DNA of 28,351 nt from a virus: positions 1 to 28,351 of IMG/VR virus record IMGVR_UViG_3300043411_000238; one strand, written 5' to 3'. Positions 1,302-22,000 of the stretch are shown here, one piece after another. The translations under genes and the position numbers were made by a program. How positions within the stretch are numbered: position 1 is the first letter of the stretch; each line of letters begins with the position of its first letter. The notes below the pieces were generated by a model, which ran no database searches, was not told the DNA's origin, and worked only from the letters and a program-made list of their open reading frames with translations.

Positions 1302-1332
1302 ATATTAGTCGCTATTGACGGACGTGTCAATA
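1302..1332 (-). promoter_or_regulatory. Sigma70-type promoter with inverted-repeat operator (site 1)
   Basis: On the minus strand: TTGACA (1330-1325), 17 bases, TAATAT (1307-1302). The -35 region lies in an inverted repeat TATTGAC-GGACGT-GTCAATA (1313-1332). The same arms and 6-bp spacing occur at 4925-4944 and 6666-6685, in each case with a promoter offset of 17 bp. The site overlaps the last codons of the VRR-NUC gene and would drive the 1285 gene and the TetR-like gene. Confidence 0.8.
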
Positions 1333-1688
1333 TCTCCGGTTGAAAATAACGCCATCCCACCAAGCGACCGCACCAGATCGGCCCATCGGCGCTGCGCTTG
1401 CTCGTGTTTGTCGGCCATGCGCGGTTTCCATCCTTCGCACTTCGCCTCGACCGATACGAACTGCCCGATCACAGTACCGACCATTTCCTGAGTGACCAGC
1501 ACCGGACGAATACCGATCAAGTCGGCAGATGCGACGGTCGATCCGGGCGTATCATTCGCCAGCCCCCATCGAACGAACGATCCGTTTTCGAGTTTCCCCG
1601 CACCGCAGTTGTTGCGCCATAGCCGCCAGCCCGCAGCAGACGCGGCGATGCGGATGCGTTGCGATACTGACGCCTCACTGGCGGTCAT
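1305..1688 (-). CDS. VRR-NUC domain nuclease
   Basis: A 127-residue protein starting MTASEASVSQRIRIAASAAG. ATG 1688 overlaps the upstream stop as ATGA, which decides the start over a longer frame. The order of motifs fits the PD-(D/E)xK VRR-NUC family: an N-terminal helix with a conserved Glu, then SADLIGI (the Asp strand), then FVSVEAKCEGWKP (E-x-K core), then a helix KHEQAQRRWADLV and GGMALF. VRR-NUC proteins are Holliday-junction or structure-specific nucleases often found in phage replication modules. The last codons contain the operator of site 1. Family assignment is confident; substrate is not determined. Confidence 0.85.
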   Translation of the reverse strand: MTASEASVSQRIRIAASAAGWRLWRNNCGAGKLENGSFVRWGLANDTPGSTVASADLIGIRPVLVTQEMVGTVIGQFVSVEAKCEGWKPRMADKHEQAQRRWADLVRSLGGMALFSTGDIDTSVNSD

Positions 1689-1930
1689 GATGTATGCGCC
1701 TCGATGCGTATGACACCGCGCACGGTTTTGCATATGACGGCGTCTCGTTCTGTGTTTAGTATCAGTTGCCCCGATTCGTCACGGACGTACACCACGACCT
1801 CTCCGAGTTCCTCATCTGCTGTTATGCAGTCGCGTGTAAGAACACCGTCGATATATACGTCGCATGTATACGCGTGCGGTAACGCTGCCGGATCGAATGC
1901 CGGATCGTTCTTGTCTACGGTTATTCTCAT
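1685..1930 (-). CDS. Phage protein of unknown function
   Basis: An 81-residue acidic protein beginning MRITVDKNDPAFDPAALPHA. Strand-rich pattern (YTCDVYIDGVL, GEVVVYVRDE, RDAVICKTVRGVIRI), so probably a small beta-sandwich or beta-barrel. Coupled on both sides by ATGA overlaps. Its last residues, EAHTS, are the same as those of the next gene upstream because the two gene junctions share nearly identical DNA. No function recognised. Confidence 0.65.
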   Translation of the reverse strand: MRITVDKNDPAFDPAALPHAYTCDVYIDGVLTRDCITADEELGEVVVYVRDESGQLILNTERDAVICKTVRGVIRIEAHTS

Positions 1931-2151
1931 GACGTATGCGCCTCGATTAGTCGAGTCAGATAGTGCTGCGCTTTCTTCAAGTCCTCAACACCGCCTTTAT
2001 CGTCACACCGTGCGATATATTTTATGCAGTTGCCTCTAAGGAATCCGACGAACTGTTCGTGCGTCATCCATGATTCCATCGCGTCCCAGGGTTGAACGGT
2101 TTTACTCCGGTAATGCTCCCCGCCGATCTGTGTGTCGCGTGCTGTTGTCAT
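1927..2151 (-). CDS. DUF3310 family protein
   Basis: A 74-residue protein with the complete DUF3310 signature: an N-terminal IGGEHYRSKTVQPWDAME, then FLRGNCIKYIARCDDKGG and EDLKKAQHYLTRLIE. DUF3310 proteins are common in phages of many hosts; they are sometimes annotated as nucleotide kinases on weak grounds, and the real function is unknown. The start at 2151 overlaps the methyltransferase stop (ATGA), and GGAG lies just upstream. The C-terminus LIEAHTS comes from the recurring junction sequence. Confidence 0.9.
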   Translation of the reverse strand: MTTARDTQIGGEHYRSKTVQPWDAMESWMTHEQFVGFLRGNCIKYIARCDDKGGVEDLKKAQHYLTRLIEAHTS

Positions 2152-3140
2152 GACGTATGCTCCATGTATGATTTAATTATTTCCGCCGCGACTTGGGGAA
2201 CGATCGCATTGCCGTATCCGCGCAGCTTGACCACTCTTTCGGATACCCCATTAGCCAACGGGAATGTTCCGGGTTCAACGCACCGCCACTTTGCATCCCT
2301 GCACAGCAGCCAATCAGCATCTCGCCATACGCCGTTAGTCGGGCGGGCTGCATCGCTACCACTTGCTGCGACAGCGGAACCCCCGTGTCTGCTGGTCGTG
2401 GAGGTAGCGAACCCCTGCTGTGATCCTGCGCTGTCGGGGATACCCACCCGGCAAGATTCGCCTGCCGCCCCAATTGATCCAGTCGTTCCTTGCCGCACGA
2501 TCGAGGTTTGATGTCCGATCCCGAATCCTTCCAGTCTCTTGTCGTCGTCGTCGTCCATGCCACAAGCTCCACTGTTCTCCGACTGCTGTCGTTGTTCCCC
2601 GCAGGGCTGTTCCCATTCTGTGCGGGCGTCCCTGCCATTGGTGTCGGCCACGAACCACAGTCTGTCTCTGATATGCGGTGCGCCGACGCCCGCAGCCGGT
2701 ACACAGACCGCCCCGACGGAGTAATCAGCCGCTTCCATATCAGCTTGAACAAGGTCGAGCCAACCGTGACCAATCGCAGCGCCAACCTGTTCTCCAAAGA
2801 CGACTGAAGGTCGACACTGGTCGATGAGATGGAACCATGCGGGCCATAAGTGCCGCTCGTCAGCAAACCCTGCACCTTTGCCTGCCGCGCTGAAAGACTG
2901 ACATGGGCAACTACCCGTCCAGACGCGCCTATCGTCAGGCCATCCGGCGAGGCGCAAGGCGAGGCTCCATCCGCCAATCCCTGCGAAGAAGTGACATTGC
3001 GTGTATCCCCTGAGTTCATCTGGTGTGACATCTTCGATCGATCGTTCATCTACATCCCCGTATGCTATGTGTCCGTTTCTGATTAACTCGCGCAGCCATT
3101 CCGCAGCCTTCGGATCGAGTTCGTTATAATACGCCGTCAT
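2148..3140 (-). CDS. C5-cytosine DNA methyltransferase (phage copy)
   Basis: A 330-residue protein with the C5-methyltransferase motifs in order: motif I FFAGIGGW (51-58), motif IV PCQSFS (79-84, nucleophile Cys80), motif VI GEQV (116-119; Gln replaces the usual Asn), motif [13 protein letters not shown] (158-166), and C-terminal [12 protein letters not shown]. It would methylate cytosine in a short DNA target, most likely to shield phage DNA from host restriction. The N-terminal [20 protein letters not shown] extension is typical of a phage subgroup. The ATG overlaps the helicase stop (ATGA), with an AGAGGG ribosome-binding site. A 290-codon ORF lies within it in the +1 frame; the variable region between motifs VIII and IX has an unusual Gly/Ser/Asp-rich composition, as expected if two frames are constrained. 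Confidence 0.92.
2177..3049 (-). CDS. Possible overlapping gene inside the C5 methyltransferase (+1 frame)
   Basis: A 290-codon ORF in the +1 frame of the methyltransferase gene, from ATG 3049 (91 bases after its start), with GGGG seven bases upstream. It contains [20 protein letters not shown], a WPTP motif, and near the C-terminus [16 protein letters not shown]. The cassette C5 methyltransferases carry ORFs with matching motifs in the same +1 frame. I recall many database 'hypothetical proteins' with WPTP repeats and 'LNP..WLMG.P..W' endings from phage and prophage loci. Expression is unproven; it could be a by-product of the shared methyltransferase sequence. Confidence 0.45.
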
Positions 3141-4738
3141 CCCCGTACCCTCTCCATGAGTGCTACAGCCTCCGCACGACCCAATGCCTGTGCGGATAGA
3201 ACATCAATACCGAACGTGACGAAAAACTCACGCTGCAACCGTCGCACCGTCATCTCGTCCGTGTCGCCGCTACGTCGCCCACCCCATTCGGCCATCGCGG
3301 CACGCAGATCGGCCTGCGCATCGCCGCGTTCGCGATGCCTCGCATTGATCGACTTCTGTATCAGCATGTCTGGGTGCGAAGCTGGCGGCGCGTCAATCGC
3401 ACCGCGCATCTGTGCTAGCGTATCGGCATCGAGTTCATACAGATCACCATCGACCTGTTCTGGCAACGAGCGCCCCGCAGGCTCGACCCTGACGCCGCAG
3501 TACGGGCACGTCAGACCGTGTTCCGCACGCTCATACACGCCCGTACAGGCCGGGCACACGCGCACCGGGATCACATCATCGGGCGTTCCGCGTGAGCGTC
3601 GTTCGCGACGATCCAGCGACCATTCCCGCGCTGCATCCGGCAGGCCGTGGCGCATCACGTTACCAACATGATCTATGATGAGCGCGTGCGACTTGCCATC
3701 CATGATACGTAAGGCGCGTCCGAACTGCTGGGAATACAGACCGAACGATTGCGTCGGACGTGCCATTGAAACGACTTCCAGCGCAGGCAGATCGAATCCT
3801 TCGCTGAACAGATCGCAGTTTGTCAGTTGCTTGATTTCACCGTTCGCGAAACGTCGCAGGATTGCCGCACGTACTGCTGGCGGCGTTTTCGCGCTCACTG
3901 TCTCAGCCGGTACGCCAGCCTGGCGGAACGCCGCAGCTACGTCACTGGCTGATTCGACATCAGTGCAGAACGTCACACCGAGTTTCCCCGCAGCGATCCG
4001 TATGTAATGCTGCACGACATCGCCGACGATATGTGACTGGCGAACGGCCTTGCGTAGCGGATCGGGCGAGTAATCACCGCCAGCACTGATGCCGACGCTG
4101 GATAGGTCGAGATCGGACGGTGGTGCAAATATGCGGTAATCGGTTAGGTATCCCTCATCAATCAGATCACGCATGGACGGTGCGAATACCATCGTGTCCA
4201 TGAGTCCGTCGGCGTGGCGACCTAGACCTAGACCATCGGCGCGAACGGGTGTCGCTGTGACGCCCAGGCCGCGTGCGTTCGGGAACAACGACGCGGCAGT
4301 CCCCCACTTCGTTTTGGATAGTAAATGATGGCACTCGTCCTGCACCCATAGTGTCACGGTATTGAACCACGTCGTCGTTGGTGGCATCTTGACCAACGTA
4401 TCGACCGATGCGACGCCACACGCACCCACAGCGTTATAATACGATCGACCTGTATGCTCGATATGCGCCGCTACGCAGTCCCGTATCAGCGCCGGTTGCC
4501 CGATGATCCGATGACGGATACCGTTACGCGCCAGCGCCAGGCTGATCTGACCGACCAGTTCGTGACGATGCGCGATAGCGATAGACGGCCCGTTATGATC
4601 GTGTATGACAGACGAGAATACTGTCGTTTTACCCGAACCCGTCGCCGCGACCGCGAGTACGTTACGCGCACCGGACGACCATGCGGCGTAGATGTCACGC
4701 TTCAGATCAGTCTGATATGGGCGAAGCGTGACGGTCAT
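3137..4738 (-). CDS. DEAD/DEAH-box superfamily 2 DNA helicase
   Basis: A 533-residue protein. Motifs: Q-like LRPYQTDLKRDI near the N-terminus, Walker A AATGSGKTT (31-39), motif II DECH (134-137), motif III GVTATPVR, and in the second RecA domain EGFDLPALE and motif VI QQFGRALR. A C-terminal zinc ribbon follows (CPACTGVYE...CPYCG). This layout is that of phage ATP-dependent helicases related to SSL2/RAD25, which unwind DNA during replication or recombination. The ATG overlaps the stop of the small upstream gene. It heads the leftward early operon with that small gene; DNA polymerase is in the divergent operon. Confidence 0.92.
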   Translation of the reverse strand: MTVTLRPYQTDLKRDIYAAWSSGARNVLAVAATGSGKTTVFSSVIHDHNGPSIAIAHRHELVGQISLALARNGIRHRIIGQPALIRDCVAAHIEHTGRSYYNAVGACGVASVDTLVKMPPTTTWFNTVTLWVQDECHHLLSKTKWGTAASLFPNARGLGVTATPVRADGLGLGRHADGLMDTMVFAPSMRDLIDEGYLTDYRIFAPPSDLDLSSVGISAGGDYSPDPLRKAVRQSHIVGDVVQHYIRIAAGKLGVTFCTDVESASDVAAAFRQAGVPAETVSAKTPPAVRAAILRRFANGEIKQLTNCDLFSEGFDLPALEVVSMARPTQSFGLYSQQFGRALRIMDGKSHALIIDHVGNVMRHGLPDAAREWSLDRRERRSRGTPDDVIPVRVCPACTGVYERAEHGLTCPYCGVRVEPAGRSLPEQVDGDLYELDADTLAQMRGAIDAPPASHPDMLIQKSINARHRERGDAQADLRAAMAEWGGRRSGDTDEMTVRRLQREFFVTFGIDVLSAQALGRAEAVALMERVRG

Positions 4739-4905
4739 GCGGGTATCCAGCCCCGCAGATCGGATAATGACGCGCCGACGATACGATGGATGCCGTCATC
4801 ACCGCGTTTGATACTACACTGCACACGCTCGAACCCCCATGTGAAGCCGGTAAATAAGAACCCATCAGTGTTCGGTAAATGGCGAAGTTGCCTAATCAGT
4901 TGCAT
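4735..4905 (-). CDS. Small leader gene of the helicase operon
   Basis: A 56-residue ORF starting MQLIRQLRHLPNTDGFLFTG and ending RGWIPA. It has a good ribosome-binding site (GAGGTGCGT, then ATG 4905) and its stop overlaps the helicase ATG as ATGA. This coupling and its position as first gene after the divergent promoter region make it very likely real. The run FLFTGFTWGFERVQCSIKR looks like beta strands. I recognise no family; it may assist the helicase or only couple its translation. Confidence 0.65.
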   Translation of the reverse strand: MQLIRQLRHLPNTDGFLFTGFTWGFERVQCSIKRGDDGIHRIVGASLSDLRGWIPA

Positions 4906-4924
4906 ACGCACCTCGTAAAATAGT

Positions 4925-4955
4925 TATTGACAACACCGTCAATATAAATTATATT
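4925..4955 (+). promoter_or_regulatory. Sigma70-type rightward early promoter with operator (site 2)
   Basis: TTGACA (4927-4932), exactly 17 bases, TATATT (4950-4955). The inverted repeat TATTGAC-AACACC-GTCAATA (4925-4944) covers the -35 box and most of the spacer. It drives the 5010 gene and downstream rightward genes. A repressor bound here would block RNA polymerase directly. Confidence 0.82.
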
Positions 4956-4969
4956 CTCAATCGTTGCAA
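4941..4969 (-). promoter_or_regulatory. Probable leftward early promoter
   Basis: On the minus strand: TTGCAA (4969-4964), 17 bases, TATATT (4946-4941). The inverted-repeat operator (4925-4944) overlaps its -10 box and start region, so one bound protein could control this and the divergent rightward promoter. The -35 is only a partial match, so confidence is moderate. The first gene downstream starts at 4905. Confidence 0.55.
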
Positions 4970-5009
4970 GTTATTTTTTCTCCCACAACCACCCCACGAA
5001 AGGGACATC

Positions 5010-5597
5010 ATGAGTATTTCCATCACTATCACCGATCCGACCAACGAGGAAGCACTACGCATCGCCGATTACCTGTACGAACTTGCCGGGTTCGGCAAGT
5101 CAATCACCCCGACCGAACCTGATCCGACTGCGACATCGCGCCTCGTCGAAGTGTTTCGCAGCAGTCCGGGATTCGTTTCGGAGGTCACACCAGTGGTTCC
5201 GATCCCCGCTGAGAATCAGATGCCGCTCATCGCACCCGCAGCGTCAGTTACACATGAGACTCATGACATCGACGGTGTTGCATGGAACGCCGAAATTCAC
5301 GCCAGCACGAAATCCAAAACGGCAGACGGACGGTGGAGAGCGAAGCGTAACACGACAGGTGTGACACCCGTGGCACCCGCAGCACCCGTGGCACCCGCTG
5401 CACCCGTGGCACCATCCGGCGCGATGACGTTCCCGCAGCTTATGCAGCGGATCACGCAAGGTATTGCATCGAACGCATTCACACACGATAAGGTTAAGGC
5501 TGCACTCGCACTGGCTGGTTGCGAATCATTACCTGCGCTGGCGTCACAGCCGAATCTAATCCCGATCGTCTGCGCAAACCTGGCGATAGCAGCATGA
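5010..5597 (+). CDS. Phage early protein with Pro/Ala linker, function unknown
   Basis: A 195-residue protein; AAAGGGA precedes ATG 5010. Three parts are visible. The N-terminal region (1-80) begins MSISITITDPTNEEALRIAD. A conserved-looking middle, VAWNAEIHASTKSKTADGRW (about 91-110), is one I recall from phage proteins of unknown function next to DUF2800 and DUF2815. A Pro/Ala/Val linker (about 116-135, units PVAPAA) leads to a C-terminal helical domain, FPQLMQRITQGIASNAF onward. It is the first gene of the rightward early operon and overlaps the DUF2800 start (ATGA). A role in replication or recombination is inferred from neighbours only. Confidence 0.8.
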   Translation: MSISITITDPTNEEALRIADYLYELAGFGKSITPTEPDPTATSRLVEVFRSSPGFVSEVTPVVPIPAENQMPLIAPAASVTHETHDIDGVAWNAEIHASTKSKTADGRWRAKRNTTGVTPVAPAAPVAPAAPVAPSGAMTFPQLMQRITQGIASNAFTHDKVKAALALAGCESLPALASQPNLIPIVCANLAIAA

Positions 5598-6664
5598 GCG
5601 AACACGCTAAATTCGCGCCGTCGTCGGCGCATCGATGGGTGGCGTGCCCCGGTACGATTCGGATGTCCGAAGGTATTGTCGAGCCGGAATCCGAATCGGC
5701 ACTGGAAGGCACGATCGCGCACGAAGTCGCAGAATGCACTCTCCAAGGCAAACCGATTCGCAGTGACGCAACGGATGAGATGATCGACGGTGCAATCATG
5801 TACGCTGAATATATTATTAGCGTGATCGGCAAGGAACAGCAGATACACATCGAGGAACGTGTGAATGGCGTGCACCCGGAGAATTGGGGTACGCCGGATG
5901 CTTACACACTGACTGACACTGATCTGCATATCTTCGATTACAAGTTCGGGCGGGGTATCGTCGATCCGTATCGTAACTGGCAATTGCTGAATTACGCTGC
6001 GGGTATCATCGGCAAGACACCTGACATCACGATCCATCTGCACATCGTTCAGCCTCGCGCATATCACCGTGACGGTACGTGCCGTTCGTGGTCGATTATC
6101 AGCCAGGACGCATTCACGTTTTTTATGACGTTGAGTGCCGCAGTAACGGATGCTCTGAAACCGAACGCCAAGTGTTTCACCGGCACACACTGCGAACACT
6201 GCCCAGGTCGGTATCGTTGTTCGGCATTGCTGCGTTGTTCATATTCAATCATCGAGCGATCCGGCGAATCGCTGCCGCTCGAAATCGCAGTCGATGTGAT
6301 GGGTATGATTCTCGTCCAGGTGCGTGAAGGTATTGATCGTCTTACGGCCATCGAGTCGGGTATGGAACAGCAGGTTCTATCCGCGCTGCGTGCGGGTGCG
6401 CGGGTTCCCGGCTGGCACATTGAAACTGGTGCCGGTCGTGAGCGGTGGCGCGTACCGTATGCCGAAGTCGTGGCACTCGGTGACGCGATGGGCGTACAGG
6501 TGCGTAAGGACGAACTCATCACACCGAAGCAGTCGGTTAAGGCTGGTCTTCCGCGTGATCTGGTCGATAGCTTCACGGAGATACCATCGGGAAAGGCGAA
6601 GATCGTCCGTGACGATACGAGACTGGCGCAGGTGTTTGGTGCGTCACCGAGTGCTGTGAAATAA
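5594..6664 (+). CDS. DUF2800 protein (PD-(D/E)xK nuclease-like)
   Basis: A 356-residue protein starting MSEHAKFAPSSAHRWVACPG; ATG 5594 overlaps the previous stop (ATGA), which excludes the longer upstream frame. The opening SSAHRWVACPGTIRMSEG, the EGTIAHEVAE helix, GTPDAYTL and LHIFDYKFGRG (D...YK nuclease core), then QLLNYAAG, match the DUF2800 family, related to RecB/Cas4-type nucleases. A Cys cluster HCEHCPGRYRC around residues 210-225 could bind an Fe-S cluster or zinc as in Cas4-like enzymes. DUF2800 genes typically sit beside DUF2815 and phage DNA polymerases. Likely an exonuclease of phage recombination or replication. Confidence 0.9.
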   Translation: MSEHAKFAPSSAHRWVACPGTIRMSEGIVEPESESALEGTIAHEVAECTLQGKPIRSDATDEMIDGAIMYAEYIISVIGKEQQIHIEERVNGVHPENWGTPDAYTLTDTDLHIFDYKFGRGIVDPYRNWQLLNYAAGIIGKTPDITIHLHIVQPRAYHRDGTCRSWSIISQDAFTFFMTLSAAVTDALKPNAKCFTGTHCEHCPGRYRCSALLRCSYSIIERSGESLPLEIAVDVMGMILVQVREGIDRLTAIESGMEQQVLSALRAGARVPGWHIETGAGRERWRVPYAEVVALGDAMGVQVRKDELITPKQSVKAGLPRDLVDSFTEIPSGKAKIVRDDTRLAQVFGASPSAVK

Positions 6665-6665
6665 T

Positions 6666-6696
6666 TATTGACGGATTCGTCAATATCGTTTATATT
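6666..6696 (+). promoter_or_regulatory. Sigma70-type promoter with operator (site 3)
   Basis: TTGACG (6668-6673), 17 bases, TATATT (6691-6696). The inverted repeat TATTGAC-GGATTC-GTCAATA (6666-6685) is arm-for-arm identical to sites 1 and 2. A short hairpin CCGCA-CT-TGCGG (6706-6717) lies in the leader, followed by AGGAGC before ATG 6738. This promoter would transcribe the DUF2815 gene, the inserted gene cassettes and then the DNA polymerase genes. Confidence 0.82.
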
Positions 6697-6737: not shown

Positions 6738-7538
6738 ATGACTGAAATTCTTTTCCCCGTTGGCCGTATGATCGGTGGTTCGATGTACAAGCCGAACCCG
6801 AAGAAAGACAATTTCGGCAAGCCCGTACTCGACAAGACGGGTCAGCCTGTAACATCGTTTTCGTTCGGCGTCGCGCTGCCGAAAACGCAGCAAGACTGGC
6901 GTCTTGAGTCGTGGGGCGCGCAGATCCTCGCAGTTGGTCAAGCCGCATATCCGGGAATCTGCAACACGCCGTCGTTCGCCTGGAAGATTATCGACGGCGA
7001 CTCGCAAGTGCCGAACAAGAAAAACCGCAAACCGTGCGATCAAGAGGGGTATCCGGGTAATTGGGTATTGTGGTTCTCTCAGTCGTGGGCACCCAAGCTG
7101 GTCAATGCGAACGGATCACAGGAACTCACCGAGCCGAATGCAGTGATCGCAGGCTATTACGTCCAGGTATTCGGTGGAGTTAAGAGCAACGCGCCGTCGC
7201 CGACGCCCGGTGTGTATCTGAATCCGATCGCCGTTGCACTCTCAGGATATGGTACGCCGATCGAAACGTCGAGCGTCGATACTACGGCAGTCGGATTCGG
7301 TGCATCGCCCGCACCCGCCGGGATGTCAGCAACGCCCGTGGGGATGATGCCACCTGTCGCACCTGTCGCACCTGTCGCACCTATCGCACCCGCAGCACCG
7401 AACACGTCGTTCCTGCAACCGCCATCCGCGCCATCCGCGCACCAGATGACCCCGGCTGCGAACGGTGTCACGTATGAGGCGTATGTCGCGCAGGGATGGT
7501 CTGAGGCGATGTTGCGCCAGCATGGGTTGATGGTCTGA
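6738..7538 (+). CDS. DUF2815 protein (ssDNA-binding-like)
   Basis: A 266-residue protein beginning MTEILFPVGRMIGGSMYKPN. Residues 1-160 match the DUF2815 pattern (VTSFSFGVALPKTQQDW, WGAQILAVGQAAYP, AGYYVQVFGGV, GVYLNPIAVAL), which is predicted to have an OB-like single-stranded-DNA-binding fold. The C-terminal 90 residues are a flexible Pro/Ala linker with PVAP repeats and a final helix YEAYVAQGWSEAMLRQHG. The usual DUF2815 length is near 180-200, so the tail is an extension. It stops nine bases before the first attC site, so the cassette insertion lies immediately behind it and separates it from the polymerase genes. Confidence 0.88.
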   Translation: MTEILFPVGRMIGGSMYKPNPKKDNFGKPVLDKTGQPVTSFSFGVALPKTQQDWRLESWGAQILAVGQAAYPGICNTPSFAWKIIDGDSQVPNKKNRKPCDQEGYPGNWVLWFSQSWAPKLVNANGSQELTEPNAVIAGYYVQVFGGVKSNAPSPTPGVYLNPIAVALSGYGTPIETSSVDTTAVGFGASPAPAGMSATPVGMMPPVAPVAPVAPIAPAAPNTSFLQPPSAPSAHQMTPAANGVTYEAYVAQGWSEAMLRQHGLMV

Positions 7539-7547
7539 GGCGATGCG

Positions 7548-7625
7548 GCCCAACGCACTAGCTCAGGGGCGACCGGAATGACGCGCAGCGGCATTGAGGG
7601 CGTCCGCTTGAGCGAACGGTTAGGC
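7548..7625 (+). other. attC site a (complete)
   Basis: Left box GCCCAAC (7548-7554) and right box GTTAGGC (7619-7625) match RYYYAAC and GTTRRRY exactly. Inner arms GCTCAGGGGCG and CGTCCGCTTGAGC pair imperfectly, with extra bases in the right arm. No cassette ORF precedes it; phage DNA starts within nine bases. Confidence 0.8.
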
Positions 7626-7653
7626 CAGGTGGCAGAAGCGAAAGGAGAGACGT

Positions 7654-7983
7654 ATGCTGTGGTTTGACGTGCTGGCGATTGGTACGCCAGCGATGGTGCT
7701 GGTGATGAGTGCGGCCTACTACGCCGGGCGCCGCCGCGAACGCCGCGAGTTGTGGCCAGAGGCTGCGAAAGCCGGGCGCTACAAGATGGTATGCCGCAAC
7801 GTGCTGACGTGGTGTTGCCAAGACGAATTCCGGGCTGCGCGACTGGTGGCGGGGCACGTCATGGACTACGGCGAAGGCGTGGGGCCGATCAACGCCGGAA
7901 CGCCGCATGGCGACGAGACGTGCACCGTGAATGGACTGCGCGAGCAACTGCGCCGCGTGAACCGCACGGCGCCTAACGTTTGA
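7654..7983 (+). CDS. Cassette 1 ORF: small membrane-anchored protein, unknown
   Basis: A 109-residue protein; AAAGGAGAG ends five bases before ATG 7654. The N-terminus MLWFDVLAIGTPAMVLVMSA is one membrane helix, followed by a strongly basic YYAGRRRERRE stretch, so the rest is probably cytoplasmic. A soluble part with CRNVLTWCCQDEF and a Gly/His-rich segment follows. The stop lies inside the left half of the next attC site, as is usual for cassette genes. I do not recognise the family. With DNA methyltransferases in the other cassettes a defence or counter-defence role is possible, but nothing in its sequence shows that. Confidence 0.6.
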   Translation: MLWFDVLAIGTPAMVLVMSAAYYAGRRRERRELWPEAAKAGRYKMVCRNVLTWCCQDEFRAARLVAGHVMDYGEGVGPINAGTPHGDETCTVNGLREQLRRVNRTAPNV

Positions 7984-8060
7984 CATAACCGGCGCTGGGA
8001 TTGTGCAAGTCGAGGGCGATATGAAGACGCATAACGCCAAGGTAAGCGGCGTGCCGCCAC
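7971..8060 (+). other. Remnants of two attC sites (left halves only)
   Basis: GCCTAAC (7971-7977) starts an attC-like left half behind cassette 1, but no matching GTTAGGC follows. A second left half begins at GCATAAC (8029-8035) with GGTAAGCGGC (8041-8050), nearly the same as the left arm of the complete site at 10019. Its right half is also missing. The frame between them, ending MKTHNAKVSGVPPQD, reads through the second left half like the end of cassette ORF 4 (GHNAQVSGGG). This looks like the scar of a lost cassette. Confidence 0.6.
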
Positions 8061-8077
8061 AGGACTAAAAGGGGGAG

Positions 8078-8632
8078 ATGAAGATGGAGCAACTGCAAGC
8101 GTTTGACGGAGGCACATGCGGCACGTCCGACTTGACCGACGTGTTAGGGGTTGGATCCGCACGGATGCACCCGCACGACAACAAGTTTCACACAGGCAAC
8201 GGAGAGGATGGAAAGCACTACTGGCTGACGCCGCCCGACCTGTACGCGCAACTGGACGCGGAATTCGGGTTTGACTTTGACCCGTGCCCATTCCCGAAGC
8301 CTGCCGACTTCGACGGCCTGACGTGCGAGTGGGGTCAGCGGAACTACGTGAACCCGCCTTTCGGATCCATCGTGCACCAGGGAAAGAAGAAGGGGCCGAC
8401 TGCCTGGATGCGCAAAGCGATTGAGGAACAGCGAAAAGGGAAACTGTCGGTCGTGGTGTACCCGGTGGACAAGTGGGTGCTGATGATGCTCGCGGCCACC
8501 GGAGCGCAGAACGTCCGCAACCTCGGTGATGTGAAGTGGTGCGCCACAGAGGACGGATCCGCAGGGAAAGGGACGGGGCGGCATATCGCGTGCTTCGTGC
8601 TGACCCCTAACGATGGAGGTAAGCGGCTTTAG
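8078..8632 (+). CDS. Cassette 2 ORF: phage-type N6-adenine DNA methyltransferase (Dam family)
   Basis: A 184-residue protein. After a 40-residue leader come YWLTPPDLYAQLDAEFGFDF, DPCPFP (about 69-74) and YVNPPFG (about 89-95, catalytic NPPF), then a helix TAWMRKAIEEQRKGK, VVYPVDKW and a C-terminal HIACFVL strand. This order is that of the phage DNA N-6-adenine methyltransferase family (PF05869 type), which modifies adenine and can protect phage DNA from restriction. GGGGGAG immediately precedes ATG 8078; ATG 8084 has better spacing and may be the true start. The stop lies inside the following attC site. Finding a phage-type enzyme in an integron cassette suggests traffic in both directions. 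Confidence 0.88.
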   Translation: MKMEQLQAFDGGTCGTSDLTDVLGVGSARMHPHDNKFHTGNGEDGKHYWLTPPDLYAQLDAEFGFDFDPCPFPKPADFDGLTCEWGQRNYVNPPFGSIVHQGKKKGPTAWMRKAIEEQRKGKLSVVVYPVDKWVLMMLAATGAQNVRNLGDVKWCATEDGSAGKGTGRHIACFVLTPNDGGKRL

Positions 8633-8655
8633 TCCGCTTGACCGCGTAGTTATAC
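8605..8655 (+). other. attC site c (complete, 51 bp)
   Basis: Left box CCCTAAC (8605-8611; first base departs from RYYYAAC), right box GTTATAC (8649-8655). Arms GGTAAGCGG (8618-8626) and TCCGCTTGACC (8633-8643) pair, with an extra C and an extra A unpaired in the right arm. The preceding ORF stops within the site. Confidence 0.8.
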
Positions 8656-8670
8656 GGCACTAGGAGGAAT

Positions 8671-9387
8671 ATGAAACATTTAGATTTATTTAGTGGTATA
8701 GGTGGTTTTGCTCTTGCAGCTCAGTGGGCTGGCATTGAAACGGTAGCCTTCTGCGAGATAGACAAGTTCTGCCATAAGGTTTTGCAGAAGAACTTTCCAA
8801 GGGTGCCAATACATGACGACATTAGAACTTTAAGAGGCGAGGATTATGCAGGAATTGACATCATCACAGGTGGATACCCGTGCCAGCCATTCAGCCTTGC
8901 AGGAAAGCGAAAAGGATCGGATGACGAACGCCACTTGTGGCCAGAAATGTTCCGCCTTGTGCGAGAAATCAAGCCCCGTTGGGTTGTTGGAGAAAATGTT
9001 GCTGGGCACATTACCTCTGGACTCGACGATGTTTGTGATGACTTGGAAAGCGAAAACTACGAAACGAGGACGTTTGTTTTTCCGGCTTTCGCCGTTGGGG
9101 CGAAGCATGGAAGGGAGAGGGTCTTTGTGGTGGCCAACTCCAAAAGCAAGCGACGCAATTATGGGCATGACTGCGAGAACGAGCGGAAGGCCGATAGAAC
9201 GGAGTACCCATCTGCAAACTATAGTGGGGCTTTCGGTCGGATGGAAACCGGGAGATGGGCACCTGAACCCAACGTGGGTAGAGTGGTTGATGGGGTTCCC
9301 AATCGGGTGGACAGAAATAGAGGACTCGGAAACGCAGTAGTTCCACAAGTGGCTTATGAGATACTGCGGTGCATTCGTGCCGTATAA
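8671..9387 (+). CDS. Cassette 3 ORF: C5-cytosine DNA methyltransferase
   Basis: A 238-residue enzyme. Motif I DLFSGIGGF (5-13), motif IV GGYPCQPFS (nucleophile Cys71), motif VI GENV (107-110), motif VIII GRERVFVVA (147-155), and motif IX/X region VPNRVDR and GNAVVPQVAYEIL. The variable target-recognition segment between VIII and IX is only about 50 residues, giving a minimal enzyme typical of phage-like C5 methyltransferases. AGGAGG lies seven bases before the ATG. Its opening is markedly AT-rich with codons such as TTA, GGT and ATA, unlike its GC-rich neighbours, pointing to a separate origin. The stop TAA is formed within the next attC box. It resembles cassette 5 closely in motif spacing. 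A second ORF overlaps it in the +1 frame. Confidence 0.93.
   Translation: MKHLDLFSGIGGFALAAQWAGIETVAFCEIDKFCHKVLQKNFPRVPIHDDIRTLRGEDYAGIDIITGGYPCQPFSLAGKRKGSDDERHLWPEMFRLVREIKPRWVVGENVAGHITSGLDDVCDDLESENYETRTFVFPAFAVGAKHGRERVFVVANSKSKRRNYGHDCENERKADRTEYPSANYSGAFGRMETGRWAPEPNVGRVVDGVPNRVDRNRGLGNAVVPQVAYEILRCIRAV
8846..9340 (+). CDS. Possible overlapping gene inside cassette 3 methyltransferase (+1 frame)
   Basis: A 164-codon ORF in the +1 frame of the methyltransferase, with GCGAGG just upstream of ATG 8846. It contains MTWKAKTTKRGRLFFRLSP, WWPTPKASD and a C-terminal LNPTWVEWLMGFPIGWTE. These motifs recur in the +1 frames of the other two C5 methyltransferase genes. Between cassettes 3 and 5, I count 18 of 27 identical residues for this frame from TWKA to EGxG, against 15 of 26 in the methyltransferase frame over the same DNA. 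Real expression is uncertain. Confidence 0.45.
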   Translation: MQELTSSQVDTRASHSALQESEKDRMTNATCGQKCSALCEKSSPVGLLEKMLLGTLPLDSTMFVMTWKAKTTKRGRLFFRLSPLGRSMEGRGSLWWPTPKASDAIMGMTARTSGRPIERSTHLQTIVGLSVGWKPGDGHLNPTWVEWLMGFPIGWTEIEDSETQ

Positions 9388-9437
9388 CGGCTGAATTCAG
9401 CGGCGGCGAAGCCGTCCGCTGGAATGATTGGTTATGC
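9382..9437 (+). other. attC site d (complete, 56 bp)
   Basis: Left box GTATAAC (9382-9388), right box GTTATGC (9431-9437). Arms CAGCGGCGGC (9398-9407) and GCCGTCCGCTG (9411-9421) close on a GAA loop, with one unpaired A in the right arm and a second extra base just outside. These unpaired bases mark the recombining strand in attC hairpins. Confidence 0.88.
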
Positions 9438-9461
9438 CGCACGTATTACAAGGAAGGAAAC

Positions 9462-10067
9462 ATGATGACAGTTGCCGTACTTTTTGCACGCGCTGACAGC
9501 CACTACAAGGCGCTGCCAGGGTGTGACGTCTGGGACATTGAGCGGGACGCAAGGCTCTGGCCGGGTGGTTGCAGTGTGATAGCACACCCGCCGTGCAGGG
9601 CGTGGGGAAGGCTGCGCCAGTTTGCAAAGCCGCGACCTGGTGAAAAGGAGTTAGCGATTTTGGCTGTTGCGAACGTGCGCAGGTTTGGCGGAGTGCTGGA
9701 ACACCCGGCAGAAAGCTCGCTGTGGATTGACCAGCGGTTGCCGCGACCCGGTGAGTTCCCCGACGAGTTCGGCGGCTGGTCGATGGAGATTGAGCAATAC
9801 CATTGGGGGCACCGTGCGGAGAAAGCGACCTGGTTGTATGTGGTTGGCTGTGAACCGTTCGACGTGCCACCGATGCCGCGCAGAACTGGAAAGGCAACGC
9901 ACTGCATACGACCAACGAAGAAATACCCGCGCTTGCCATCAGTGACAAAGGCAGAGCGGGAACACACCCCCCCGGAGCTTGCTGCTTGGCTCGTTGAGCT
10001 GGCAGGACGCTGCAAGGGGCATAACGCCCAGGTAAGCGGCGGCGGTGCTTTTCCGCCGTCCGCTTGA
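9462..10067 (+). CDS. Cassette 4 ORF: conserved protein, possible distant cytosine-methyltransferase relative
   Basis: A 201-residue protein beginning MMTVAVLFARADSHYKALPG; AAGGAAGGAAA precedes ATG 9462, so the longer upstream frame that begins inside the attC is not used. Conserved-looking blocks: GCDVWDIERDARLWPGG, AHPPCRAWGRLRQFA (about 41-55), GGVLEHPAESSLW, and a C-terminal TPPELAAWLVELA helix. The PPC block followed by an E-x-P block resembles motifs IV (PPC) and VI (ENP) of some divergent C5-methyltransferase-like families, but a clear SAM-binding motif I is not visible. The last 15 residues are encoded by the following attC. Proteins of this type occur in proteobacterial phages and prophages as far as I recall. 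Function unproven. Confidence 0.7.
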   Translation: MMTVAVLFARADSHYKALPGCDVWDIERDARLWPGGCSVIAHPPCRAWGRLRQFAKPRPGEKELAILAVANVRRFGGVLEHPAESSLWIDQRLPRPGEFPDEFGGWSMEIEQYHWGHRAEKATWLYVVGCEPFDVPPMPRRTGKATHCIRPTKKYPRLPSVTKAEREHTPPELAAWLVELAGRCKGHNAQVSGGGAFPPSA

Positions 10068-10081
10068 CCGACGTGTTATGC
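10019..10081 (+). other. attC site e (complete, 63 bp)
   Basis: Left box GCATAAC (10019-10025), right box GTTATGC (10075-10081). Arms GGTAAGCGGCGGCGG (10031-10045) and CCGCCGTCCGCTTGACC (10053-10069) form a 15-bp stem with two unpaired bases (C and A) in the right arm and a TGCTTTT loop. The best-formed site of the array. Confidence 0.9.
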
Positions 10082-10090
10082 GTTTTGACT

Positions 10091-10774
10091 ATGAGACACC
10101 TAGACCTTTTTTCAGGGATCGGCGGTTTTGCACTGGCTGCGAAGTGGGCCGGGTTTGAAACCGTTGGGTTCTGTGAGCAAGATGATTTTTGTAAGTCGGT
10201 GCTGGCGGCACGGTGGCCGGGTGTGCCGATACATAACGATGTGAGGGATTTAGATGGGCGATTGTTTCGAGGACTTGAACTTGTCACAGGTGGATACCCG
10301 TGCCAACCGTTTAGCAGCAGTGGGAAAAGACTTGGCGCAGAAGATGACCGCCACCTCTGGCCGGAGATGCGCCGAATTATTGAGCAAGCAAGACCAACTT
10401 GGGTGGTATCTGAAAATGTTGCTGGTCACATCACGATGGGCCTCGACGACGTGCTCTCTGACTTGGAAAGCCTCGACTACGCCGCGAGGGCGGTTGTTAT
10501 TCCGGCTTGTGCCGTCGGCGCGAACCATAGAAGGCAAAGGGTGTGGGTTATTGCCCACACCACAGAGTTCGGATTGGGTGACAACATACCGACCACGCGA
10601 CACCACCCTCCGCCGCACATTTGGGGGGAATGGCAAGAGTGGGAGGATAAACCCACGATTCTTGGAACGGATGATGGGCTACCCAATAGGGTGGACAGAA
10701 TTGCCGCCATCGGAAATGCAATAGTTCCGCAAGTTGCTTACGAGCTACTGCGGGTGATGACGCATAACAAGTAA
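10091..10774 (+). CDS. Cassette 5 ORF: C5-cytosine DNA methyltransferase
   Basis: A 227-residue enzyme starting MRHLDLFSGIGGFALAAKWA. ATG 10091 is chosen over an upstream ATG at 10064 because motif I sits three residues in, as in cassette 3, and the upstream start lies inside the attC. Motifs: DLFSGIGGF, GGYPCQPFS (Cys71), SENV (107-110), RRQRVWVIA, LPNRVDR and [13 protein letters not shown]. The target-recognition segment is about 45 residues and differs from cassette 3, suggesting another target sequence. There is no clear ribosome-binding site. The C-terminus MTHNK reads into the truncated final attC box. It lies at the edge of the insertion, just before the phage polymerase operon. Confidence 0.92.
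   Translation: MRHLDLFSGIGGFALAAKWAGFETVGFCEQDDFCKSVLAARWPGVPIHNDVRDLDGRLFRGLELVTGGYPCQPFSSSGKRLGAEDDRHLWPEMRRIIEQARPTWVVSENVAGHITMGLDDVLSDLESLDYAARAVVIPACAVGANHRRQRVWVIAHTTEFGLGDNIPTTRHHPPPHIWGEWQEWEDKPTILGTDDGLPNRVDRIAAIGNAIVPQVAYELLRVMTHNK
10254..10724 (+). CDS. Possible overlapping gene inside cassette 5 methyltransferase (+1 frame)
   Basis: A 156-codon ORF in the +1 frame, with GAGGG seven bases before ATG 10254, which is good ribosome-binding-site spacing. It carries LTWKASTTPRGRLLFRLVP, LLPTPQSSD and a C-terminal INPRFLERMMGYPIGWTE, matching the +1-frame ORFs in the other two C5 methyltransferase genes. The methyltransferase has no obvious initiation signal of its own, whereas this inner ORF does. 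Expression still needs evidence. Confidence 0.45.
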   Translation: MGDCFEDLNLSQVDTRANRLAAVGKDLAQKMTATSGRRCAELLSKQDQLGWYLKMLLVTSRWASTTCSLTWKASTTPRGRLLFRLVPSARTIEGKGCGLLPTPQSSDWVTTYRPRDTTLRRTFGGNGKSGRINPRFLERMMGYPIGWTELPPSEMQ

Positions 10775-19096: not shown

Positions 19097-22000
19097 TTAC
19101 ACCCTCGTTGCCGGCAATCCGTCGATATTCCACTGATCTTCGATCTGGAACATGCGCTTGTTCGTTTCCTTGATCTGCGCAATATCGATCGCCTGCGCAT
19201 CGGTGCATTGTACCAGCCTTGCGAGTAAGGCGTTCGTTTCGTCGCGCGCCTCGCGCTGCATATCCACGAACGGACGCGGCGTAATTTCCTCGCCCTCATG
19301 AATCGGTGCGACCATGTCATACGGCACATACGACGTGCCGATGGCGAACCCTGGGAATCGAGGATCGCTGGTTATTGCCTCATACGACGGATCTCCGGGT
19401 TTGGCAAAAGCCGTTTCTTTCAGTGCTGCCGCTGCATTGGCGTATTGTGTAGCACTCATGCCTGCGACGATCAGTTTGTTTGCCTCCAGTTCTGCATTGA
19501 CGGTCGGTACATCTCCACCCCCACCGACCGTACTGACAGCCGCGCCGCCAAGCGGTTGAACGGTAGCAGGTGACGTCATGGCACGTTCGGCTGCGATTGC
19601 CACACCCAACGCCGCAATCGCAGCCGAAACGCTCAATATCCGCGTATCGATCCCGCGAAGCGCATCGAGTTGCGCCTGCGCCATTGCCAACTGTGCGTCC
19701 AGATCGGCAAGCTGTCGTTCGGCAAGTGCCAACGCCTTGTCCGCCGCTGTGAGCTGATCGCCACTGATAACACCAAGCGCCTCAAGCTGCGCAGCCAGGC
19801 GAAGACGATCTCGATCCTCCGCCACCCTGCTCGTATAGAGTTTCGCGTCGAGTCCAGCAGTCGATGCGGAGATGGCCGTCTTCAGATCGTTGGCATCCGG
19901 AAGATACCCGCTCGACTTGGCATTCTCAAGCGCGTTCGATATGAATTGCATACCGGCGACACCGGACTGCACCACCGAACTTGTAACCGAACCGCGAAGC
20001 GATTTGACACCTTCCGATATGGCATCCATCACCGATTTGATCGCTGATACATGCTCACGCGCAGTATCAACCGCCGATTGGGCTATTTTTCGCTGCGCAT
20101 CAATCGCACGGCGAACGGCGTCCATCGCCGAATCGGTTGCCGATCTGGCTGCTGCGAGATTTCGTTCAGCAGCTTCGCGTGCAGCCTGCGCAGCTTCGGC
20201 TGCATCTTGCGCCGCCCATATCGCCGATTGCATACCACGCAACGACTCGTCCATTGCGGCGAGTTCATCCTTGCGACGTTCAGCCAACGCACCTGCGCGA
20301 TTCCCCTGTGCTTCCATCAGCGCGATTTCAAGCTGCCGACGCTGTGCTGCAAGCTGAAGCGCGGCAGAGTTATCAGCAGCGGCAGAATTGTCAGCAGCGG
20401 CAGAATTGTCAGCAGCGGCATCGGTTGCGACGGATGAGGTTTCGGCCTGTGCAACCTGCGCAGCGGCAAGTGCCGACGCTGCATTCGCGAGATCAATCAA
20501 TGCGACGCGGCGTTCATCCGCAGCGCCAACATTCGCAACATCAAGTTCGTCCCAATACGCTTTGACCGCAACAGCGATGCCGCCCTTCTCGTCAATATAT
20601 TTCTTCGCAGCATCCAATCCGACACCCGCCTTATTGGCGACAGATGCAAGTGCGGCGTCGTATGCGGATTGCGCTTGGCTGATGTTGAATTGCGACGCAC
20701 CTGCCTTATTGCCGGTCGAGTCTAGCAGACCCGCATATGCACTCGCCGCCGCACTACTAACCAATGCAGCAGCTTGCTTTGCACCAAGCTCTCGAATCTT
20801 TGCCAGATCAGACTCTGTTGCAGCGAGTGCTCGCGCTTTGTCGATCGACGCCTGCATTGCCGATGTAATATCGTGCAGCGATTTTTCGAGCGGCGACATC
20901 GCCAGTTCGGCCAATGCAGTATCTACATCGCGCATCTGTTCTGCCAATGCTTTAGCGTTCTCCGCTGCCTCTTTCGCAGCCGGATGCAATTCGAGATACG
21001 CGCCAATCAACCCATTCAATCCGGCGATCTGTTTCTGGCCTTCAGCGGTCGTTGCGTCTATCCCATCCATGAGCATTTTGAAATCAGCAGTCGACGCAGG
21101 CACTGCAACACCGAGTTCGGCGAACGCTTTTTCGAGCAGTTTCGTTTTTTCCGCAGTCTTTTCTGCTTCATCCATCAATGAATACGCCGCAGCTTTCTGC
21201 ATTGCCTGTGCGGTGAGATACGCCGGCAGCGAGTTTTCCAATTCACCGAAATTCTTCATCAGCGCGTCAGCCGCAGCGGATAGCTTGGGATCGGAGATTT
21301 CCTTGATCAATACCATGAGCTCGTCGGTATGCAGCTTGCCGAGATACCCGGCTGCTGCGGCAGCATCGTCTTTCCCGAAGGTCGTGCTGCCGCTGGTCAG
21401 TTCTTTGCCACCGACGATGATTTTGCGATAGGCAAGCCCCTGCGATGTCCCCTTTGGATCGAGTTTGTATCCTTGATCGACCATGACATCAGTAAGTGTT
21501 TTTCCGAACGATGACGCCAGCGCATTGACTTGCGCATATGCAGATTCAGTCAATGCCTTATTGCCGAGCGAATCACCTCCGGACATAGTAAAACCCGCAG
21601 AATATCCATTAGAGCCAATCTGCCCGTATTCACCCTGCTGCGGGCCACCTTTTTTACCAAACAATCCGATTGCATTCGCAATAACAACGGCCGCAGCAAC
21701 ATACGGTACAACGGCAGCAAATGATGACGCAGTACCTGCAAGCGCAGCACTCGCGGATTCCATAACCGTTGCACCTGTTTCCAACATCGTCGTAAATGTC
21801 GGGATCACTGTTCCAAGATTACTGACCGCAGTACCAATAGACGGCAATGATGCCAATGACGATCCGATTGAGAATAAGTCACCTGCCCCACCACCAGTGA
21901 CGCTACCCGCAGCTTGCGCTGCACCCGCAGCCATACTACCTGCGCCGCTGATCCCGACGTTAATCAGAAACTTCTGAACCGTCATCTTGTACAACATTTC

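Follow-up and report, generated by a model that had tools for sequence, protein, structure and literature searches.

The 28,351 bases analyzed here (the window) make up an IMG/VR virus record that is incomplete, and all site counts given for it cover these bases. Its minus strand carries a helicase gene, a DNA methyltransferase gene, a nuclease-like gene, a 63-aa ORF and the gene for a TetR-like protein; ORF 5010–5597, a DUF2800 exonuclease-like gene and the gene for a single-stranded DNA-binding protein (SSB) lie on the plus strand (Table 1). The 63-aa ORF, to which no convincing family could be assigned from Pfam, PHROGs or NCBIfam, overlaps the start of the TetR-like gene by 4 nt, and the two are probably coupled.

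Table 1. Genes, predicted operators and candidate promoters around the three palindromes of the window.
Feature	Position	Strand	Evidence and remarks
TetR-like regulator, 102 aa, proposed ligand	789–1097	−	Pfam TetR_N PF00440; phrog_8723
63-aa ORF, behind promoter 1 and ahead of the TetR-like gene	1094–1285	−	ORF list
Promoter 1	1302–1330	−	TTGACA 1330–1325, 17 nt, TAATAT 1307–1302; 10/12 match
Nuclease-like gene, upstream of operator 1	1305–1688	−	phrog_93, 1.7e-11
Operator 1, predicted (TATTGAC GGACGT GTCAATA)	1313–1332	.	Exact match; overlaps 3′ end of the nuclease ORF upstream
DEAD/ResIII helicase, divergent from operator 2	3137–4738	−	Pfam and PHROGs
Operator 2, predicted (TATTGAC AACACC GTCAATA)	4925–4944	.	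Exact match; between divergent helicase and ORF 5010 operons
Promoter 2	4927–4955	+	TTGACA 4927–4932, 17 nt, TATATT 4950–4955; 11/12 match
Candidate divergent promoter	4941–4969	−	TTGCAA 4969, 17 nt, TATATT 4946–4941; 9/12, weak; towards helicase operon
Conserved early gene, phrog_11133, first behind promoter 2	5010–5597	+	PHROGs
DUF2800 exonuclease-like gene, one operon with ORF 5010	5594–6664	+	Pfam 8.3e-41; PHROGs
Operator 3, predicted (TATTGAC GGATTC GTCAATA)	6666–6685	.	Exact match; before SSB gene
Promoter 3	6668–6696	+	TTGACG 6668–6673, 17 nt, TATATT 6691–6696; 10/12 match
Gp2.5-like ssDNA-binding/annealing protein, first behind promoter 3	6738–7538	+	phrog_7011, 1.4e-63

Between the SSB and DNA polymerase genes, positions 7545–10090 hold an integron-type gene cassette array in a phage genome, with attC-like right ends at 7602–7626, 8632–8656, 9414–9438 and 10058–10082; the site at 10018–10082 shows the long single-stranded hairpin fold typical of attC (z −4.6). 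One Dam-like and two C5 cytosine methyltransferases are among the cassette genes. The 28 kb contain four DNA methyltransferase genes (2148–3140, 8078–8632, 8671–9387 and 10064–10774), of which the array holds three.

A pattern scan of the whole window recovered three perfect copies of TATTGAC-N6-GTCAATA, with the identical 7-base arms that the first-pass annotation had described. Tolerating up to three mismatches added a single site, at 21820 within the tape-measure (late) ORF. Since shuffled versions of the window averaged 0.76 matches even with three mismatches, the three perfect copies cannot be put down to chance. A scan for the 5+5-base core, one mismatch allowed, yielded no further copy in the window, in agreement, as is the mismatch scan, with the earlier statement that a fourth complete copy is lacking.

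All three palindromes scored as σ70-like promoters with a 17-nt spacer and the −35 hexamer within one arm, so the promoter scan bears out the −10 hexamers (TAATAT, TATATT and TATATT) previously read at exactly this distance. Promoter 1, whose leader to the first start codon would be very short (about 10 nt), reads into the 63-aa ORF and then the TetR-like gene; promoter 2 serves ORF 5010–5597 and the DUF2800 exonuclease, and promoter 3 the SSB gene. Two further claims of the first-pass annotation stand in part. The TetR-like gene had been assigned to the promoter at operator 1 and does belong to the small operon behind it, but as the second gene, after the 63-aa ORF and with no site directly upstream, and transcription from the helicase promoter at operator 2 could reach it too. 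The divergent promoter proposed at operator 2 does have an overlapping candidate, yet the claim is weakened by a match to consensus of just 9/12.

Relatives were gathered via the SSB, which gave 28 IMG/VR relatives at 33–51% identity plus many named phages, some of them picked for having a TetR-like gene. The comparison comprised 42 genomes, i.e. this window, 23 IMG/VR contigs and 18 named phages. With the arms 6 nt apart, these genomes contained 36, 57 and 134 sites at 0, 1 and 2 mismatches, compared with at most 0, 3 and 34 for any other spacing from 2 to 10. A palindrome search that presupposed no motif placed TTGAC-N6-GTCAA or the core TGACG-N4-CGTCA among the highest-ranking recurrent palindromes in many of the 42, and ~37% of core sites lay mostly in intergenic DNA, vs. 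6% of the sequence. For the 82 sites carrying no more than one mismatch, read in both orientations, a −10-like hexamer was found exactly 17 nt after the TTGACN −35 (offset 5) in 52 of the 164 orientations, whereas other offsets gave 1–16 (rough binomial p about 1e-28, ignoring the relatedness of sites). In several relatives, the palindrome forms the −35 element of the SSB gene promoter. As the right arm sits in the promoter spacer, its conservation is not explained by σ70. Motif-bearing genomes include phages of Klebsiella, Pectobacterium, Pantoea, Edwardsiella, Acinetobacter, Shewanella and Vibrio, and related phages usually carry more than three sites, vs. three in this incomplete record. 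Judged from these sequence comparisons, the element appears to be a promoter-operator common to many distantly related bacterial viruses, and the first-pass description of a "simple phage regulon" was too modest for what looks like a conserved multi-site early regulon spanning many phage genera.

Other repeats surfaced as well. Four contigs without the TetR-like family (G034, G052, G056 and G057), from an IMG/VR scan for the exact palindrome, contain a repeated element, TATTGACNTCCNTGTCAANA, that resembles the palindrome but is not the same, possibly the site of another regulator. Recurrent GC-rich hairpins with AGCCCC or CGCCCC arms 4–5 nt apart occur in the relatives G020, W15 (CP-T1) and W10; these are perhaps the extended GC-rich repeats that a passage of PMC3391216 reports for phiPLPE, CP-T1 and 138.

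In the 26 motif-bearing genomes, a site was most frequent ahead of the genes for the TetR-like protein (14/25), the ORF 5010 family (14/23), the SSB (13/26) and the helicase (11/25); the top-ranked families are thus orthologs of the genes at the three sites of the window. Defining sites by the core gave 16/26 for the TetR-like gene (p=5e-8) and 18/25 for the SSB gene (p=1e-10), with genomes treated as independent. TetR-like genes at the head of their own transcript commonly have the palindrome ~60 bp upstream, as −35 plus spacer. By site placement, then, the operator stands at the regulator's own gene in 16 of 26 genomes, as is usual for TetR autoregulation, and in the window via the operon promoter at 1302–1330. 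A few sites precede virion-type gene families. The family of ORF 5010–5597 (phrog_11133) is itself widely conserved and very often the first gene after an operator, making it a candidate early protein.

The TetR-like protein matches PF00440 (TetR_N) at 36.3 bits against a cut-off of 24, covering the N-terminal helix-turn-helix (HTH), and phrog_8723 at 2.7e-25. Its AlphaFold model (mean pLDDT 92.4) places the HTH helices at residues 9–25, 32–38 and 43–50, followed after helix 4 by just short helices (70–78, 82–85 and 89–101). A fold comparison of the model was filled by TetR-family chains with Z up to 11.3, including the LuxR-DNA complexes 7amt and 7amn. Many TetR regulators of solved structure are also hit by the family profile, chiefly across the HTH. 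Most relatives are 91–115 aa long; with 102 aa, the window protein lacks the C-terminal ligand-binding and dimerization domain of full TetR proteins (~200 aa). Because of this length and the short helices after helix 4, the predicted fold is that of a TetR-type DNA-binding protein and not of a full-length TetR regulator.

A profile search found the TetR-like family in 40 of the 42 genomes. Of the two others, G021 is almost identical to G022 but shorter, and G022 does have the gene; G026 is a 29.6-kb fragment. The gene is also present in most of the 28 contigs for which the SSB was the sole criterion of choice. The remaining widespread families scanned were primase, polymerase, other replication, virion or unannotated proteins; judged by predicted function, none of the widely shared families except the TetR-like one is recognizable as a transcription regulator. 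L105, a contig found by DNA pattern alone, carries four sites and a TetR-like gene. Conversely, the SSB relatives 9NA and Sasha possess neither the gene nor the motif, and Silvanus and P106B show weak TetR matches only and no motif enrichment. Matches listed in an IMG/VR scan for the exact palindrome were mostly single sites; among the listed contigs of at least 20 kb (n=33), a TetR-like gene was present in 3/5 with at least three sites vs. 2/28 of the others (Fisher p=0.017). A codon-pattern scan of IMG/VR for the TetR-like protein gave no match, as the protein is short and variable, although profile searches did find it.

About one-third of TetR-bearing genomes are without the TTGAC palindrome (W01, W03, W04, W07–W09, W11, G008, G016, G028 and others), most of them in one clade, and may use other operators. 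A search of these relatives for an alternative 7-6-7 palindrome that recurs at their early promoters led to no uniform result. G016 (L019) has a palindrome of the same geometry, ATTAAAC-N6-GTTTAAT, ~35 bp before its diverged TetR-like gene, possibly an altered operator. At one residue of the recognition helix, genomes with and without the motif differ (Fisher p=0.003, uncorrected); covariation of helix and motif was unsupported once phylogeny was controlled for on the helicase tree, since a single clade holds most of the genomes that lack the motif. Co-occurrence, sites at the protein's own gene and a TetR-family operator geometry nonetheless support the earlier proposal of the TetR-like protein as the likeliest ligand, and on these sequence-level grounds it is the best-supported candidate.

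The palindromes hold a fixed position in their promoters, are conserved before the same genes and co-occur with the TetR-like gene. From this pattern, we infer binding, dimerization, repression rather than activation, and timing, and consider it probable that the 102-residue protein represses the early promoters, its own included. A dimer would bind the 20-bp operator, which is embedded in a strong σ70 early promoter at the −35 and the spacer, and would thereby block RNA polymerase. Upon phage entry, the unrepressed promoters would fire at once, giving rise to SSB, helicase, exonuclease, the ORF 5010–5597 protein and the TetR-like protein as first products; accumulation of the latter would then shut the early promoters, limiting the early pulse from within. 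The TetR-bearing genomes that lack the palindrome, the very short leader behind promoter 1 and the missing site directly before the TetR-like gene of the window speak against this reading. Lysogeny is a less likely use of such a circuit, since an integrase, expected alongside a lysogeny repressor, did not exceed the PF00589 cut-off in any of the 42 relatives, and a bacterial-genome scan found no SSB relatives and hence no prophage or host clue. The carrier phages are apparently virulent.

The same protein might instead bind these sites as an activator, or time a switch to middle genes, which we regard as unlikely. The dyad spans the −35 and spacer of near-consensus promoters with an optimal 17-nt spacing, a position in which an attached dimer should obstruct polymerase. 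Activators of the MerR type, which bind the spacer, usually work on over-long spacers, unlike the 17 nt present here. The few sites ahead of virion-type families would suit activation, and LuxR/OpaR-type members of the TetR family are known to both repress and activate (PMC3323551). That the repeats are RNA hairpins acting as terminators, or arose by chance from a −35 consensus and palindromy, deserves next to no credence. Operator 3 does lie right after a stop codon, and its stem rates as weakly terminator-like, but such stems are as numerous in the window as in shuffles (5 found vs. 5.9 expected), and a coincidence would not preserve across genera, at 6-nt spacing only, a right arm on which σ70 makes no demand.

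It is very doubtful that the ligand is another conserved early phage protein such as that of the ORF 5010–5597 family. This family occurs in 23 of the 26 motif-bearing genomes, 14 of which have a site ahead of it; against it, Pfam, PHROGs and NCBIfam detect no DNA-binding domain in it, and it is kept in the motif-poor G008, G016, G023 and G026. Recognition of the palindrome by a host regulator conserved among proteobacteria, in place of a phage protein, would fit the resemblance of the motif to the LuxR/OpaR/SmcR box of Vibrio. Yet phages of seven genera, from Klebsiella to Vibrio, share the motif, it is missing from SSB relatives that lack the TetR-like gene, and its sites single out the regulator gene of the phage itself, all of which renders a host reader highly improbable. 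Autorepression by the TetR-like protein remains our preferred reading.

The box of the Vibrio regulators LuxR, OpaR and SmcR, the 20-bp inverted repeat TATTGATAAA-TTTATCAATA, is an experimentally supported TetR-family operator (PMC3323551) and was also obtained as a ChIP-seq motif (PMC7658014). The Vibrio box (including that of HapR) and the phage palindrome share 20 bp and 7-base arms 6 nt apart; relative to TATTGAT-N6-ATCAATA, the latter differs at arm position 7, which is T in Vibrio and C in all three window copies, the rest of the arm being equal. One natural Vibrio site, TAATGACATTACTGTCTATA, does have TGAC..GTC (PMC3323551). Both sets of proteins contain a TetR-type HTH, and the Vibrio proteins are autoregulated, a feature that the phage protein resembles by site placement. 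In contrast to its 102 aa, LuxR, OpaR, SmcR and HapR have a C-terminal domain, comprise ~200 aa and control cell functions. The NCBIfam model quorum_TF_HapR is not listed for the window protein and reaches 32.7 bits in the relative from L005, far below the cut-off of 350. It is quite improbable that the phage operator is near enough to the LuxR/HapR/OpaR box to permit cross-talk, with the quorum master regulator of Vibrio hosts damping the early promoters at high cell density, or the minimal phage TetR protein sitting on host quorum promoters.

TetR-like genes were noted in phages phiPLPE, CP-T1 and 138 in a passage of Comeau et al. 2012, which suggests a co-opted bacterial regulator (PMC3391216); CP-T1 and phiPLPE carry members of the TetR-like family described here. 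For phage 9g, likened by description, a passage of PMC4276943 guesses a role of the TetR-like gp3 in the early-late switch. The passages on these four phages in the two papers name no operator, promoter element or regulon (PMC3391216, PMC4276943).

Our search of the open-licence literature found no report of this operator. The present analysis offers a predicted target site and regulon for TetR-like genes long annotated, with no role assigned, in lytic CP-T1, phiPLPE, Jedunavirus, Peatvirus and Edwardsiella MSW-3, predicts how early transcription of such phages is limited, and suggests that DNA-binding domains of the TetR type can function when the C-terminal domain is almost absent. In phage lambda, CI and Cro act as repressor dimers on dyad operators that overlap early promoters, and are autoregulated. 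The proposed circuit would share the dyad operators over early promoters and, provided the protein binds as we suppose, the autoregulation; it differs in the fold of the regulator, in its single, dispersed operators and in the lack of an integrase over the cut-off in the group. The kind of circuit is thus known, and a conserved early regulon governed, as predicted here, by a minimal TetR-type protein would be a new variation on it, not a kind of its own.
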